NCBI GenBank assembly: GCA_030433415.1
Contig: JAUIMF010000001.1
Coordinates: 124,001 to 188,000, forward strand
DNA: 64,000 nt
DNA from: Gammaproteobacteria bacterium
GTDB lineage: Bacteria; Pseudomonadota; Gammaproteobacteria; Pseudomonadales; Halieaceae
Reading direction: 5' to 3'
Shown here: piece by piece, positions 23,644-43,687 of the stretch
How positions within the stretch are numbered: the stretch's first letter is position 1
How the letters are laid out: every line of letters begins with the position of its first letter
Translations under genes and position numbers: made by a program
Notes under the pieces: generated by a model
Databases searched by the model: none
Told to the model about the DNA's origin: nothing
Seen by the model: only the letters and a program-made list of their open reading frames with translations

Positions 23644-24888
23644 TCAGGGTGCGGAGTCCGGACTGGCTTCAACGTAAACGGACGGCAGGGCGTGACGCTC
23701 GCGGTGCTCGAGCGTGGCTGCTTCTTCACTTGCTGGCACCAGGGGCTGGTATTCATCGCCGGCGGGCACAACGCGTATCACCACACCGATGACCGGGTGG
23801 TCCAGATAGTGGATTTCGCCAGAGCGCATGCGTCGGCTCTGGCGATGCACAATGGCATGACGCCACGGGTATTCTTCACCGGTTTCCGCCGCGGGCGACC
23901 CATCGTTCACCGGCAAAGCCGCCGCAATGGGTGCCAGGACATCGAGCCCGGGTTCATCCTCAATAGGCGTCGTGGGCAGGAACAATGTTGCGGGATCGAC
24001 AAGCGGCAAGGTGTTCCAGGGATCGGTGGTGTCGCCGGCCCGAGTTTCTGCGCGTACGGACGCCCGCGGCAGGGCTGGCGGGTCAATCTGCCAGCCTTCG
24101 GGAAGATAGTCCCCCATGGTGTTCAGCCAGAGATTCAGGTTTACGTGCAGATAACGGGACCGGTAAAGGCGAACCGAACCCTGCAGTGCGGGCCACGCGC
24201 TCTCGTCCGGGTCCGCGCTGCGGTCCACAACAACGGCGCTGGTATCTTCTTCGTCGGCGAGGCGGGACCACCAGCTGCCGTGGAACAGGATGCGCTGACC
24301 GCGCCGCCGCAGGATCCTCGCCTGTTCGACGAATTCATGCTGACTCGGATCGAGCAGTTCATAGGGTTGCACGAGCAGCTGTGGTGGCAACGTCTCGACA
24401 GATGGTCCGTCGACTTCTGTCACTGTATCCGGAGCCGGTTGAATGGGGTCCGGCAGGTTGGGATCGGTAGGCAGAGGGGCTTCGAGCGGAACCAGTAGCG
24501 CATCCGGGCGTGCAATATCGTCAAAGGGGGTGATCGCGGCGTTCATCACCAGCGTCTGGTAACCCTGGTCATCGATGCGGCTGTAGTTGGCGCCGGTCTC
24601 GACCAGGCGGCGCTCGGCAAGTTCCGCGTCGATGAGATAGCGATAACGTTCGGGATAGGCAAGTTCAGGTAGCGGTGCCCATTGTTCCGACTGCAGCGTG
24701 TTTTCATCGGTGCGCGCAAAAATGAGAATCTCAGTGCGGTACCAATCGTTCTCAAGCTCGGGCTTTACCGGATACAGCGCCGTGGATGGGTCCTGCTGGG
24801 CCACGGCGACCGCACCGGCGAGCGCCAGGACCAGGCCGGCAAGCCAGGTCAGGGTGGTCCCGGTGCCAGCCTCAGGCCGCTTCGTCAT
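23644..24888 (-). CDS. csiV: CsiV-family peptidoglycan-binding / periplasmic protein
   Basis: 414 residues from ATG 24888, with a signal peptide (LTWLAGLVLALAGAVAVAQQ). The conserved opening of the mature protein is WYRTEILIFAR, and a C-terminal segment is RMRSGEIHYLDHPVIGVVIRV. CsiV family members next to mfd bind peptidoglycan or affect D-amino-acid/stress responses in Vibrio; the role here is inferred. The start overlaps the mfd stop by 17 nt, so it is probably coupled to mfd. Confidence 0.8.
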   Translation of the reverse strand: MTKRPEAGTGTTLTWLAGLVLALAGAVAVAQQDPSTALYPVKPELENDWYRTEILIFARTDENTLQSEQWAPLPELAYPERYRYLIDAELAERRLVETGANYSRIDDQGYQTLVMNAAITPFDDIARPDALLVPLEAPLPTDPNLPDPIQPAPDTVTEVDGPSVETLPPQLLVQPYELLDPSQHEFVEQARILRRRGQRILFHGSWWSRLADEEDTSAVVVDRSADPDESAWPALQGSVRLYRSRYLHVNLNLWLNTMGDYLPEGWQIDPPALPRASVRAETRAGDTTDPWNTLPLVDPATLFLPTTPIEDEPGLDVLAPIAAALPVNDGSPAAETGEEYPWRHAIVHRQSRRMRSGEIHYLDHPVIGVVIRVVPAGDEYQPLVPASEEAATLEHRERHALPSVYVEASPDSAP

Positions 24889-28492: not shown

Positions 28493-29962
28493 GTGACGGA
28501 CCACAAGCGACCCCGCCCTGACGATTATTTCAGTGACTGGAAAGAGCGTGAGGCTCTGGCTGAAGACCTGATTCCCCTGGTCGGCCGCCTGGCCCGTGAG
28601 CGGAATATCAAGTGCTTCTGCTACGACCGCTCCATGGTCAACAAGTCCGTGCTGGACCTGATGAAGACCCATCGCTATGTGCGCCAGGTCGAGGGCAATG
28701 AGCTGTCGGAGCGCGAAACGCATCCCATCGTCAAGGCGATCAGCGGCATGAATATCGGTCCCGCGCACATCGATGTGGGCCGTCTCGCGGTGAATTTCTA
28801 TGACAAGGGGCTTGGTGAAGGCAAGACCCTTGAAGAGTACCTGCGTTCTGAGCTCGACTACCTCATTGACTCCACCCACAAGCCGCTGGAGAAGCCGGTG
28901 GATGTGGTGCTCTACGGTTTTGGTCGCATCGGCCGTCTTATGGCCAGAATTCTTATCGACAAGGCCGATGGTGGCGAGGTGTTGCGCCTGCGGGCGGTGG
29001 TCGTGCGCAAGGGCAAAGCGCCCAATGATCTGGTCAAGCGCGCCAGCCTGCTGCGTCGCGATTCTGTGCACGGTGCCTTCGCCGGGACGATTCGCGTCGA
29101 TGAAGAGCGCCAGAGCTTTGTGGCCAACGGCAACGAGGTGCGGGTGATTTACGCGGATTCACCCGACAGCATTGACTACACCGAGTACGGCATTGATAAC
29201 GCGCTGGTGGTTGATAACACCGGGGTCTGGCGTGACGAGGAAGGTCTGTCCCAGCACCTCAAGTCCAAGGGTGTCGCCAAGGTGGTGCTGACTGCGCCCG
29301 GTAAGGGCAACCTGAAAAACATCGTCGCGGGCATCAACAGCAGTGATATCGCCGATGACGATCGCATTATCTCGGCGGCCTCCTGCACCACGAACGCCAT
29401 CGTACCGCCCCTGAAGGCCATCGATGATGAATACGGCATTGTGCACGGGCACGTGGAGACGGTGCACGCGTTCACCAACGACCAGAACCTGATCGACAAC
29501 TACCACAAAGCGGATCGCCGGGGTCGCAGTGCGCCGCTGAACATGGTGATCACTGAAACCGGCGCCGCCAAGGCGGTGTCGAAGGTGTTGCCGCAACTTG
29601 ATGGCAAGCTCACCGGTAATGCGATTCGTGTGCCGACGCCCAACGTGTCGATGGCGATCCTCAACCTCACGCTGAAGGAATCCACGGACCGGGATCGCCT
29701 GAACGAGCACATGCGCCACATGGCACTGCATTCCGGCATGCGTCGCCAGATCGATTACTCCAACTCGCCGGAAGTTGTGTCCACGGACTTCGTCGGCTCG
29801 CGCACCGCCTGCGTACTCGATGCCCAGGCAACGATCGTCAACGGCAATCAGGCCGTGGTGTACCTCTGGTACGACAATGAGTTCGGCTACAGCTGTCAGG
29901 TCTATCGGATTCTGGAGCGAATGGCCGGCGTCGACTACCTGGTCTACCCACCCAAGTCCTGA
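28493..29962 (+). CDS. gap: Glyceraldehyde-3-phosphate dehydrogenase with N-terminal extension
   Basis: 489 residues from GTG 28493 (MTDHKRPRPDDYFSDWKERE), with GAGAGGA upstream. An extra N-terminal helical domain of about 130 residues precedes the NAD Rossmann fold (VDVVLYGFGRIGRLMARI). The catalytic Cys is in SAASCTTNAIVPP and the C-terminal segment is WYDNEFGYSCQVYRI. This long form is the variant found beside mfd in Pseudomonas. It is likely gluconeogenic or of altered cofactor use, which is inference. Confidence 0.92.
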   Translation: MTDHKRPRPDDYFSDWKEREALAEDLIPLVGRLARERNIKCFCYDRSMVNKSVLDLMKTHRYVRQVEGNELSERETHPIVKAISGMNIGPAHIDVGRLAVNFYDKGLGEGKTLEEYLRSELDYLIDSTHKPLEKPVDVVLYGFGRIGRLMARILIDKADGGEVLRLRAVVVRKGKAPNDLVKRASLLRRDSVHGAFAGTIRVDEERQSFVANGNEVRVIYADSPDSIDYTEYGIDNALVVDNTGVWRDEEGLSQHLKSKGVAKVVLTAPGKGNLKNIVAGINSSDIADDDRIISAASCTTNAIVPPLKAIDDEYGIVHGHVETVHAFTNDQNLIDNYHKADRRGRSAPLNMVITETGAAKAVSKVLPQLDGKLTGNAIRVPTPNVSMAILNLTLKESTDRDRLNEHMRHMALHSGMRRQIDYSNSPEVVSTDFVGSRTACVLDAQATIVNGNQAVVYLWYDNEFGYSCQVYRILERMAGVDYLVYPPKS

Positions 29963-30039
29963 GATCGCGCCGCGTGAGGCGCTGCCTCGAGTGCTGATTC
30001 GGGCCTTTGGTCTAGTAGCACCGGGGGGCGCACCTCCGC

Positions 30040-30272
30040 TATAATGCGCGCGATTAAAAACCGGTCTATCGGGGGTGCGAAAAGAGACCGGTTCGCCAGC
30101 CAGGCGAAAGCGCTGCCACATGGTGTGGAGCGCGTGGCATTCTTGCCGATTACCCCCGGGTTGCTTCGCCACAGTATTGAATTCAATGGCGAATTCGAGA
30201 TGGCGAATTCGAGGTGGACAGGCCTGCTCGGCGCCGTCCACAACAGTGACAGTTACGATCCAGGCGGATTAG
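30040..30272 (+). promoter_or_regulatory. nqr operon -10 box and structured 5' leader with a potential pseudoknot
   Basis: A perfect -10 TATAAT (30040-30045) has no clear -35. The ~220-nt leader then contains: P1, a perfect 9-bp helix (30059-30067 with 30085-30093) and a 17-nt loop; inside that loop CGGGGGT (30070-30076) is exactly complementary to ACCCCCG (30152-30158), a 7-bp pseudoknot extendable by G-T pairs. Between them are hairpins CGCC/GGCG (30094-30106) and GCGC..CCACA/TGTGG..GCGC (30110-30133). A perfect 14-bp tandem duplication (30186-30199, 30200-30213) precedes the ribosome-binding site AGGCGGA of nqrA. The rest of 29963-30039 shows nothing clear. Confidence 0.6.
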
Positions 30273-31616
30273 ATGATCAAGATTTCCCGGGGACTGAATA
30301 TCCCCCTAGACGGTGCGCCCTCGCAGCAGATCGAGGACGCGCCGGCAGCGCGTGCTGTGGCAATACTCGGTCACGACTATGTCGGCATGAAACCCACAAT
30401 GGAAGTCCAGGTTGGCGACCGGGTTCGCTGCGGTGACCTGCTCTTTACCTGCAAGAAGACCACGGGTGTTCGCTACACCGCCCCGGCGTCAGGCACCGTG
30501 TCGGCGATCAACCGCGGCGCCAAGCGGGTGCTGCAATCCGTGGTTATCGACGTGGACGGTGACGAGGCGGTCGATTTTGGTGCGATGGATGCCACCGCTG
30601 CGCGCGCGCTGGACGCCGATGCGGTACGGGAGCGACTCGTACAGTCTGGCCAGTGGACGGCACTGCGCACGCGCCCGTTCAGCAAGGTGCCTGCGCTGAA
30701 TCACGAGCCTGCCGCCATCTTTGTGACGGCTATCGACACACAGCCCCTCGCCGCGGATCCCGCGGTCATCATCGGCGAGCAGCGCGATGCGTTTGATCTT
30801 GGCCTCGACCTGTTGGCCAAGCAGACAGCCGGTACGCTGTTTGTCTGCACGGCACCGGGTGCTGATGTGCCCGCTGGCACCGCCGGCAATATCCAGCGCG
30901 AGGAATTTGCAGGACCGCATCCGGCGGGACTCGCAGGCACGCATGTTCATTTTCTGTTCGGCGCGGCTGCCGGCCGCACCGTGTGGACCATTGGCTACCA
31001 GGACGTTATCGCCATCGGTCGGCTGTTCCTCGACGGTCGCCTGTGGACCGAGCGCGTCATCGCCCTGGCAGGCCCGCAGGTCGAAAACCCGCGCCTGTTG
31101 CGTACGCGTCTCGGCGCGGACCTTGAAGCCCTGTGCGCGGGAGAGGTGCGCGGCGGTGAGAATCGCATCGTCTCAGGCTCCGTGCTGGGTGGACGCAAGG
31201 TCGCCGGTGCAACGGCCTATCTCGGGCGCTATCACCAGCAGGTGAGCGTGCTCGCCGAGGGGCGTGACCGCGAGTTCATGCACTACATGCGTCCCGGCGT
31301 ACGCAAACACTCCAGCACCGGTGTGTTCCTCAGCAATTGGTTTGGCCTGAAACCCCTGGCCATGACGACCACCACCAACGGTAGCGAACGCGCCATGGTA
31401 CCGGTGGGCAGTTACGAGCGCGTGGTACCCATGGACATGCTGCCGACGCAGCTGCTGCGTTCGCTGATCGTCGGCGACACCGAGACTGCCCAGGCCCTGG
31501 GCTGCCTTGAACTGGACGAAGAAGACCTGGCGCTCTGTACCTATGTGTGTCCGGGCAAGTATGAATACGGGCCGATCCTCAGGGATAACCTGACACGCAT
31601 TGAGAAGGAGGGCTGA
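30273..31616 (+). CDS. nqrA: Na+-translocating NADH:quinone reductase subunit A
   Basis: 447 residues, the length of Vibrio NqrA (446). Starts [14 protein letters not shown], the family N-terminus, with [18 protein letters not shown] and the conserved C-terminal ECPGK-like region [20 protein letters not shown]. It is the peripheral cytoplasmic subunit that closes the quinone site region. First gene of nqrABCDEF behind a long structured leader. Confidence 0.97.
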
Positions 31617-41236: not shown

Positions 41237-43687
41237 GTGAGAACAGCACCACTCGCTCTGGCTGCCGTGGTCATTCTGGTTGCCATCATCGTGCTGCACA
41301 CGCCCTGGGTGCCACCGGTGTGGAGTCTGTTTGTGCTCCTGGGAGTGGCGTTTGCCGTCCAGCGGGCAATGGCTGAACGCTGGCCTGGTACTCTGTCGGT
41401 TGTCGTTATTATCTCTGGTCTGACCCTCCTGCCGGCTTCACTGTGGTGGTCCAGCCTGTTGCCCGAGAGTTGCGAGCGAAGGGAGCTACAGGTCCGAGGC
41501 CGGGTGCACGGCTTGCCACAGGTCGTTGAGGGGCGTTCGGGGGAACCGGCCCTGGCGATGGAGTTCACGCTTACCGACGTGAGTGACATCGAGTGCGCCG
41601 GCCCCCGCAGGGCGCGCATTACAGTCTATGCGCGGGAGCATGCTCCGCCGCTTGCGGCCATCGAGGCCGGTGATGAACTGGTACTGCGGGTCCGTTTGCG
41701 GCGGCCGTGGGGGAGCGTCAATCCCGCCGCGTTGCAGGGCGAACGACGGTATTTTGTTGCCGGCATTCACGCCATGGGCAGCGCCTCGGAAATCCTGATG
41801 CACCGAAAATCCGAAGCCGTTGGCATGGCGCTTGTTCATCGTCTGCGAGCACGATTTTCCAGGGCACTGCGCGAGGACCGGGGTACAGATGCGGGAGCGT
41901 TGCTGAGCGCGCTGGCCGTCGGTGATCGGCGCTTTATGAGCGCCGGGCATTGGGAGCGGTTGCGACGGTTTGGTCTTACGCACTTGCTGGTGATCTCGGG
42001 GCTGCACATCAGCCTGGCTGCGATCTGTGGGTGGTTTCTGGGGCGCGTTCTGATGTTGCCGCTGATGGTGGTGAGTGCAGGGAGTGGGTTGTCGCAGCTG
42101 CGGTCCCTGGGCGGCGCTGGCGGCGCACTGGTGTGTGGAGTGGCTTATGCGCTCATGGCGGGACTGACGCTGCCAACGCAACGTGCGTTGATTATGGTCA
42201 CGCTGGCGCTGCTGCCGCCTTTGCTGGGACGCCGCATTGATCGCGGCCGAATTCTGGGCTTCGCGATTCTCGCCCTGTGGGGTGTCAGTCCCGCGAGTGT
42301 TCTTGGGCCCAGCTTCGCACTGTCTGTTGGAGCGGTAGTATTACTGCTCTGGTTCAGTCTCTGGCAGGGGGAGCTCTCTGCCTGGCGTCAGGCGATCAAT
42401 GTCCAGGGGTTCATTATTCTGGCCATGGTTCCCATGAGCCTGTTCTGGTTTCAGTCGACGTCCTCAGCGGCTGCGCTGATCAATCTGATTGCTGTGCCAC
42501 TGGTCACCTGGGTGCTGGTTCCCATGCTGCTGGCGGCGGGCCTTTTGGCCCTGATTCACGTTCAACTGGCACAGGTCGTTACGGGCTCCGCGGCAGGCAT
42601 TATTGATTATTCCTGGCAGCTCCTAGCCAACCTTGAAACCCTGGGCGGCGAGCCGAGAGGTGCCTTCGCGGGTATCAGCGTGGCCCCAGCGCTGGGCAGC
42701 CTTCTCAGTCTTCTCTGCGCGGCGCTGTTGCTACCTCTACCGAAAACCAAATATCGGTTGCTGTTGATCGGCTTGCTCGCGTCACCGGTGTTGTTCCAGC
42801 TACAGGGCCGTGTCAGTGAAGCAGGCAGAATCACAATATTTGATGTCGGCCAGGGCACCTCGGTATTCGTGGAGGCTCGGGGGAAAACGATGCTCTACGA
42901 CACCGCGGGTCTCACGGGGTCTGGTCAGCCCCGGGCCCGACATACGGTGCTGCCCTGGCTTCTATCGCGGAACCTGCGGTCTTTGGATCTGCTCGTGGTA
43001 AGCCACGAGGACAGTGATCACAGCGGCGGTGAAGCGCTGCTTCGAGATTTCACCCCGCCCAGAATTCTTCGCCGCGGTCACGCACCCGATTCCCAGGATC
43101 GTTGTCGTGCAGGCGAAGTCCTCAGTCTCACACCCGATTTCGAATTGCGGTTTCTCTCACTGGAGTTCTCCGGCGACACCGATAACAACACGTCGTGTGT
43201 GGTGATGGTCACGTTGTACGGTTATCGATTGCTTCTGCCCGGTGATATCGATCAGCGCCGTGAGAGGGAACTGGTGGCCTACTGGGGACGGGAGCTTGAA
43301 GCCGACCTGCTGCTGGCAGGGCATCACGGCTCCGGTTCATCCACCGGACGGCTGTGGTTGCGCACCGTGGCACCCCGGCAGGTGGTCGTGAGTGCGGGTC
43401 GTGCCAACACCTTTGGCCATCCTGCGGCGCGCGTGGTGGCTGACGTGAACGCCGCAGGTGCGGACCTGTTATCGACGGCGGTCAGCGGTGCTCTGGTGTT
43501 TACGGTAGACAACCGGGGGCGGGTTCGCTGTAGGCGTACGCGGCATCGAAACGGTCCATTCTGGCGCGGGGGCAGGGAACCGCGTGACTGTACTGCGGTC
43601 AACTACGAGGTGGTCGCGGCACCCCCGACGGCAACCAACACAACAACCAACACAACAAGCAACACAACAACCAATGCAACACCCTAA
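41237..43687 (+). CDS. comEC: DNA internalization competence protein ComEC/Rec2
   Basis: 816 residues. N-terminal helices and DUF4131 soluble domain, the Competence core (GALLSALAVGDRRFMSAGHWERLRR; LLVISGLHISLAAICG), about ten helices, and a C-terminal metallo-beta-lactamase-like domain (VSHEDSDHSGG; LAGHHGSGSSTG). It forms the inner-membrane channel for transforming DNA. Start GTG 41237 has no clear ribosome-binding site. The last 16 residues are an odd Thr/Asn repeat encoded by 12-bp tandem units. Confidence 0.92.
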   Translation: MRTAPLALAAVVILVAIIVLHTPWVPPVWSLFVLLGVAFAVQRAMAERWPGTLSVVVIISGLTLLPASLWWSSLLPESCERRELQVRGRVHGLPQVVEGRSGEPALAMEFTLTDVSDIECAGPRRARITVYAREHAPPLAAIEAGDELVLRVRLRRPWGSVNPAALQGERRYFVAGIHAMGSASEILMHRKSEAVGMALVHRLRARFSRALREDRGTDAGALLSALAVGDRRFMSAGHWERLRRFGLTHLLVISGLHISLAAICGWFLGRVLMLPLMVVSAGSGLSQLRSLGGAGGALVCGVAYALMAGLTLPTQRALIMVTLALLPPLLGRRIDRGRILGFAILALWGVSPASVLGPSFALSVGAVVLLLWFSLWQGELSAWRQAINVQGFIILAMVPMSLFWFQSTSSAAALINLIAVPLVTWVLVPMLLAAGLLALIHVQLAQVVTGSAAGIIDYSWQLLANLETLGGEPRGAFAGISVAPALGSLLSLLCAALLLPLPKTKYRLLLIGLLASPVLFQLQGRVSEAGRITIFDVGQGTSVFVEARGKTMLYDTAGLTGSGQPRARHTVLPWLLSRNLRSLDLLVVSHEDSDHSGGEALLRDFTPPRILRRGHAPDSQDRCRAGEVLSLTPDFELRFLSLEFSGDTDNNTSCVVMVTLYGYRLLLPGDIDQRRERELVAYWGRELEADLLLAGHHGSGSSTGRLWLRTVAPRQVVVSAGRANTFGHPAARVVADVNAAGADLLSTAVSGALVFTVDNRGRVRCRRTRHRNGPFWRGGREPRDCTAVNYEVVAAPPTATNTTTNTTSNTTTNATP
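43637..43684 (+). repeat. Four 12-bp tandem units in the comEC 3' end
   Basis: AACACAACAACC (43637-43648), AACACAACAAGC, AACACAACAACC and AATGCAACACCC (to 43684) directly precede the stop codon. They give a Thr/Asn tail on ComEC. The units are a multiple of three, so copy-number changes keep the frame. Confidence 0.85.

Follow-up and report, generated by a model that had tools for sequence, protein, structure and literature searches.

In marine bacteria, Na+-NQR serves as a main sodium pump of respiration, and little is known about how cells regulate it. The locus described here raises the question whether the nqrA leader of a Halieaceae bacterium carries an RNA element adjusting expression of the pump, and of which kind such an element would be. 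In a first-pass annotation of the analyzed DNA (64,000 nt in full, hereafter referred to as the window), the region between TATAAT and nqrA was described as a candidate riboswitch for sodium or a redox cofactor, featuring a perfect 9-bp helix, the loop motif CGGGGGT and a complementary downstream motif ACCCCCG forming a pseudoknot. A base-by-base check reproduced the positions of all these elements and of the nqrA start codon exactly (Table 1). Furthermore, the two hairpins reported to lie between the pseudoknot strands are both present, as 6-bp helices.

Table 1. Positions of promoter, leader and RNA features at the nqrA locus of the window
Feature	Position	Strand	Remark
-10 box TATAAT, followed by GCGCGCG in this species	30040-30045	+	from sequence
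nqrA 5' leader (inferred transcript)	30052-30272	+	between -10 box and nqrA ATG
Hairpin 5' arm AACCGGTCT	30059-30067	+	conserved 9-bp helix
Hairpin loop ATCGGGGGTGCGAAAAG, 17 nt	30068-30084	+	GGGG kept in 4/4 g1 leaders
CGGGGGT, proposed pseudoknot strand in hairpin loop	30070-30076	+	G-run kept in g1, partner not
Hairpin 3' arm AGACCGGTT	30085-30093	+	9 Watson-Crick pairs with 30059-30067
Small hairpin, 6 bp (30092-30097/30103-30108)	30092-30108	+	shares 30092-30093 with the 9-bp helix
Second small hairpin, 6 bp perfect, more with bulges (30114-30119/30134-30139)	30114-30139	+	
ACCCCCG, proposed pseudoknot partner	30152-30158	+	82 nt start to start from CGGGGGT
Tandem duplication ATGGCGAATTCGAG x2	30186-30213	+	lengthens the window leader
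Ribosome-binding region ATCCAGGCGGAT (role inferred)	30258-30269	+	conserved through g1
nqrA, first gene of nqrABCDEF-apbE	30273-31616	+	Pfam; ATG at 30273

Promoter, operon and ribosome-binding region

Of the 122 family genomes in which NqrA was matched, 121 supplied leaders for comparison, four belonging to genus g1 (G000, represented by the window, G012, G013 and G014), 49 to its sister genus g21 and 68 to other genera. The nqrA gene, assigned by means of the Pfam domains NQRA_N, NQRA_2nd and NQRA_SLBB, heads the NQR operon nqrABCDEF-apbE. Pfam domains identified 3' of nqrA are consistent with NqrB, NqrC, NqrD, NqrE, NqrF and ApbE, and the upstream neighbor of the operon is a gene of the GapDH family. 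TATAAT is followed by GCGCGCG in three g1 genomes and by ACCGGCG in the fourth, G013. The putative transcription start was placed at about 30052-30053, and the 9-bp hairpin begins approximately 7 nt from it. The pattern TATAATNC[CG][CG] was found in the nqrA upstream regions of all four g1 genomes, in 66 of the 68 other-genus regions and in none of the 49 from g21. Moreover, the motif TGTTCNAAATCA, which we take to resemble part of an FNR/Anr box, was observed 5' of the promoter in 24 of the 68 other-genus leaders (e.g., L017, L028); by pattern, it occurred in 0/4 g1 and 0/49 g21 leaders.

The distance from TATAAT to the start codon amounts to 233 nt in the window, 148 and 150 nt in G012 and G013, and 262 nt in G014. 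The duplication within the window leader represents a perfect 14-bp tandem repeat that is absent from the aligned congeners. At the 3' end, ATCCAGGCGGAT is identical in the window, G013 and G012 and carries one change in G014. AGGC close to the ATG was detected in 4/4 g1, 61/68 other-genus and 0/49 g21 leaders. A non-canonical ribosome site, TAGGCAGATCGT-ATG, is strongly conserved at nqrA starts (e.g., L007, L014, L020), the leader interior being variable; nqrA starts of Pseudomonas (L093, L098) feature the ribosome site TTAGGCAAACCT-ATG. GCCTG close to the 5' end of the congener leaders could base-pair with CAGGC of the ribosome-site region; GCCTG does not occur in the window leader.

An ATG-initiated ORF of 51 codons including the stop (30120-30272) terminates in the window with a TAG abutting the nqrA ATG. 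Such an upstream ORF could couple its own translation to that of nqrA, as a leader peptide or attenuator would, and ORFs ending close to the nqrA start were also identified in G012 (46 codons, ATG, ending at +8) and G014 (26 codons, GTG, ending at +4). However, the three ORFs agree in neither start nor length nor end, an ORF of at least 20 codons ending near the nqrA start is lacking in G013, no evident ribosome site precedes the window ORF, and its stop exists only through TAG at a place where the congeners have TAC. A leader peptide was judged highly improbable.

The 5'-proximal hairpin across genus g1

In order to obtain a chance baseline, 3000 dinucleotide shuffles of 30046-30272 were evaluated. 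Hairpin helices with nine or more Watson-Crick pairs occurred in 70 of these shuffles (2.3%), whereas a loop complement of 7 nt or longer arose in 427 of 3000 cases (14%) when the hairpin was kept fixed and the downstream part shuffled. Based on these frequencies, the 9-bp helix lies beyond chance but the pseudoknot strand alone does not. A helix of 7 bp or more together with a loop complement of 7 nt or more was found in 40/3000 shuffles. Raising the helix threshold to 9 bp left 2/3000; this low figure is mainly due to how seldom such a helix arises, and it concerns a pattern that was chosen after being seen. The predicted fold of the whole leader is modestly better than that of its shuffled counterparts (z -1.6, 14 of 200 as good).

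The helix is located at an equal distance from the -10 box, 15 nt after TATAAT, in all four g1 genomes. In a MAFFT alignment of the four hairpins (A3) a gap was misplaced, so that a model (R2) was built from the three congeners and the window was fitted to it. In the resulting structure-fitted alignment of the four g1 hairpins (A6), which leans towards the structure, 94.4% of the helix cells are paired as compared to 11-39% in slid controls. Among the nine pairs, four changed on both sides, two are invariant, two changed on one side and one deviates by an unpaired cell only. Out of 500 shuffles, 4 matched the percentage paired, 11 the covariation score, 40 the four double-changed pairs and 453 the number of further pair types. 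Compensatory support for the helix from four sequences is good but not overwhelming. The aligned leaders show that helix bases change, that pairing is mostly preserved and that the G-run keeps its place in the loop. The covariation that the first-pass annotation had suggested examining for the two arms was thus encountered, the hairpin being kept with compensatory changes in three congeners.

Model R2, which was derived without the window, matched 30049-30095 with 17.3 bits (E 0.078 over 77 kb, E 0.018 over 17 kb) and ranked positions 24832-24881 of the minus strand above this hairpin (19.1 vs 17.3 bits). Applied genome-wide with stricter filters, R2 reported no match in G000. Among 140 family genomes, 31 were matched at E up to 1, strong matches being confined to the three training sites. 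The next-best match (33.1 bits) is situated at an unrelated place on contig 19 of G029, whose nqrA is on contig 2, and a weak match (E 0.68) was obtained in the nqrA leader of G054. Judged by its sequence, the window hairpin is the most divergent of the four, a divergent relative recognized mainly by its position.

A direct DNA search with the leader against the 140 family genomes yielded matches in five of them, namely its own genome, G013, G014, G091 and G092. Those in G013 and G014 correspond to the nqrA start region, and those in G091 and G092 to a 26-nt stretch (query 59-84, window 30098-30123). Between the hairpin and the ribosome site, invariant leader columns are few in g1, and the small hairpin at 30092-30108 lies mostly in a stretch without counterpart in G012 and G013.

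The G-run of the loop and its possible partners

Regarding the pseudoknot 30070-30076/30152-30158, the exact pairing proposed in the first-pass annotation did not hold up in the covariation test: it is absent in all three congeners and at the chance level given above (14%). The C-run of the window falls in a stretch without equivalent in G012 and G013, two leaders in which no C-run of at least four was found. The leader of G014 contains a single CCCC at -197 relative to the ATG, just 3' of the hairpin, which allows at most four Watson-Crick pairs with the loop; a G-run loop able to pair with the downstream C-run as in the window is absent from G012 and G013. A different pairing of the loop, AGCGAA/TTCGCT (6 bp, at -36), is restricted to G012 and G013 and consequently provides no common g1 pseudoknot. 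Pairing of the G-run with early nqrA codons was set aside, since these codons are fixed by the protein and only 4 to 6 bp would form.

The finding that the exact pseudoknot does not exceed chance is in line with a passive 5'-terminal stem-loop shielding the nqrA mRNA from 5'-end-dependent decay, with G-run and C-run being incidental. The short distance between the hairpin and the inferred transcript end and the low conservation of the remaining leader would also fit this explanation. Moreover, 5'-terminal hairpins also arise simply as mRNA stabilizers, which was counted against a regulatory reading. However, not only the stem but also the loop is kept, with GGGG retained in all four g1 leaders, and G-runs are likewise present in all 49 nqrA leaders of g21. 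A purely passive role is regarded as possible, though doubtful.

A G-run of at least five starting between -140 and -100 relative to the ATG was detected in 49/49 g21, 2/4 g1 and 4/68 other leaders. Anywhere in the last 150 nt, such a run occurred in 7/68 leaders of other genera and in 392/1960 shuffled g21 leaders. By pattern, the g21 leaders were divided into subtypes A (10 leaders), B (16) and C (20), and three were left unassigned. A downstream C-run offering at least five Watson-Crick pairs to the G-run was found in 10/10 leaders of subtype A, 2/16 of B and 6/20 of C; for the unassigned leaders, ten pairs were counted in G102, seven in G097, and only five, at a longer distance, in G112. 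In local folds, at least four G remained unpaired in 8/10 subtype A, 4/4 g1 and 2/3 unassigned leaders and in none of subtypes B (0/16) and C (0/20), whose G-runs mostly form local pairs. Subtypes B (e.g., L175, L176) and C (e.g., L161, L158) represent two further nqrA leader architectures. In subtype C, an upstream CCCCCGG and a downstream CCCCGA could both pair with one CUGGGGGG, which suggests a possible switch.

Unpaired G-runs in all four g1 leaders, combined with a cis partner that varies, would also be expected for a loop serving as target of a trans partner, either a small RNA whose seed is C-rich or a CsrA-type RNA-binding protein. CsrA-type proteins favor GGA in loops, and GGA was observed in the loops of G012 and G013 as well as beside the G-run of all ten subtype A leaders. 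However, the loops of the window and of G014 contain no GGA, and a trans-acting partner appears rather unlikely as the main explanation.

The structure of subtype A was drawn by hand after viewing the sequences, which favors it, and eight of the ten sequences were aligned to it (G101 and G109 were left out). It comprises a hairpin with a YGCAARG loop, a closing stem, the G-loop hairpin, a further hairpin and the pseudoknot. The respective sites are L165 (123-230, minus strand), L169 (302-409), L173 (300-408), L178 (123-230, minus strand), L179 (302-409), L159 (299-408), L162 (299-408) and L168 (123-234, minus strand). Across the eight sequences, 88.4% of the cells are paired and 10 of 28 pairs are double-changed, as compared to 4.4 on average in shuffles. 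The YGCAARG hairpin is the strongest element (97.9% paired, 4/6 pairs double-changed); the pseudoknot helix is paired to 94.6%, but only 1/7 of its pairs is double-changed, and values of 80% and 75% were obtained for the further hairpin and the closing stem, respectively. Subtype A is interpreted as a covarying, probably pseudoknotted nqrA leader RNA with a GGGGG(A) loop and the element UCCC..AAGC.

A model of subtype A (R1), applied with stricter filters, matched 8 of 57 g21 genomes, with one match per genome, always at the respective training site upstream of nqrA. When 63 sources were searched, among them the window, L003, L004 and L005, it recovered no leader beyond the eight training sequences, G101 and G109 being missed; further matches at E of about 1 were located at 42879-42941 (minus strand) of the window and at 1869-1974 of L009, none of them in the window leader. 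A set of 44 other-genus leaders (out of 68), selected by length and 3' end, yielded no common fold (RNAalifold -1.7 kcal/mol); their ends are conserved.

Hence, the pseudoknot layout assumed for the window leader fared unevenly: the exact pairing is not retained in the congeners, but the same arrangement of G-loop and C-run recurs in the nqrA leaders of subtype A. Like the window leader, subtype A features, upstream of nqrA, a GGGGG-loop hairpin, an intervening hairpin and a downstream C-run complementary to the loop, the last of these being absent from G012 and G013. Unlike the window leader, subtype A possesses an additional 5' hairpin with the YGCAARG loop and a closing stem, and R1 misses the g1 leaders. 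The start-to-start distance of the two strands is 43-50 nt in 8/10 subtype A leaders and 67 and 74 nt in the other two (best pairing), vs 82 nt in the window. The shared G-run of g1 and g21 may represent convergence, the leaders being unlike in sequence. By analogy, g21 makes the G-loop/C-run idea respectable, without proving the pairing in the window.

Proposed mode of action and relation to known RNAs

The riboswitch reading holds that the hairpin and the loop/C-run pseudoknot form an aptamer for Na+ or a redox cofactor gating the nqrA ribosome-binding site. The layout, with a loop paired far downstream and the ribosome site at the end, would suit this function, and covarying pseudoknotted structure before nqrA in subtype A as well as the nqrA and nqrA-II motifs, described in PMC11109978, provide precedents. 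Nevertheless, the exact pseudoknot is missing from all three congeners, the few invariant columns between hairpin and ribosome site in g1 are unlike an aptamer and the leader matches no Rfam family, so that a riboswitch in the window is considered improbable. Similarly, little credence is given to the wider proposition that Halieaceae nqrA leaders constitute undescribed riboswitch classes, in which a loop of five to six G would dock on a downstream C-run and the RNA would sense the state to which the sodium pump responds, with subtype A as the best-defined and the window as a divergent example.

A reasonably probable explanation, and the one preferred here, is a fast-evolving, cis-acting nqrA leader organized around the G-loop hairpin and acting after transcription initiation. 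The latter point is suggested by a simple scan of 29900-30400, in which no terminator-like site was seen on the plus strand inside the leader. Accordingly worded as a model, the 5'-proximal hairpin of the nqrABCDEF-apbE mRNA would present its G-run in the loop, and the hairpin would influence, in cis, the stability of the nqrA mRNA and/or translation initiation. The G-run may serve as docking strand for a downstream C-run where one exists, as in this species and in g21 subtype A, and may dock on another partner, in cis or in trans, where none exists. The remaining leader would evolve fast and be rebuilt lineage by lineage. The hairpin with its G-rich loop at the start of the nqrA mRNA probably regulates the pump genes, and nqrA leaders appear as RNAs that are quickly rebuilt while their position before nqrA is kept.

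Comparison with Rfam 15 (4227 families) did not assign the leader to any family at the gathering score, at which only two tRNAs and the SRP RNA were identified in the window. At E up to 5, the leader yielded only a sub-threshold CRISPR repeat model (30165-30193). The nqrA motif of Marinomonas is presumably included among the Rfam families, and the window leader, which matches none of these, differs from it in this respect. Scanning of 20 leader loci (15 g21, 3 g1 and 2 others) at E up to 1 likewise gave no leader match, also for the six of the eight aligned subtype A leaders that were scanned; the sole match was a sub-threshold Guanidine-II at 2722-2764 of L020, inside nqrA itself. Among open-access papers, none was found on Halieaceae nqrA leaders, nor on Halieaceae in combination with riboswitches.

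Covariance-model searches assigned the leader to neither the Na+ riboswitch family nor the nqrA-II family. The Na+ riboswitch (DUF1646 motif, RF03071) shares the ligand and gene logic proposed for the window leader and consists, according to PMC9337991, of two extended stems with conserved clusters; the string 'nqr' is absent from the main text of this paper. RF03071 had no match in the window or the whole own genome at E up to 1, and 7 of 14 control genomes were matched, one of them over the cut-off. For nqrA-II (RF04310), neither the window nor any of the 140 family genomes gave a match, the genomes being scanned at E up to 1 with stricter filters; this is weak evidence of absence given that the 14 control genomes were also silent.

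As stated in the first-pass annotation, other bacteria are known to carry structured RNAs upstream of nqrA, namely the nqrA motif of Marinomonas and the nqrA-II motif of Pasteurellaceae, both without established ligand (PMC11109978); the latter is listed as RF04310 in PMC11701678. RNAs upstream of nqrA are an already known kind, for which Halieaceae, with one well-covarying structure in the sister genus g21, would represent a third setting, providing new RNAs for testing sodium, flavin or redox sensing. The Marinomonas motif resembles the window leader in being a rare structured RNA upstream of nqrA (PMC11109978). Unlike the window leader, nqrA-II has four covarying stems and many conserved nucleotides, its model spanning 174 positions. 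Like nqrA-II, a candidate riboswitch located directly upstream of nqrA (PMC11109978), the window leader adjoins the nqrA ATG at 30273 and thus occupies the same location.
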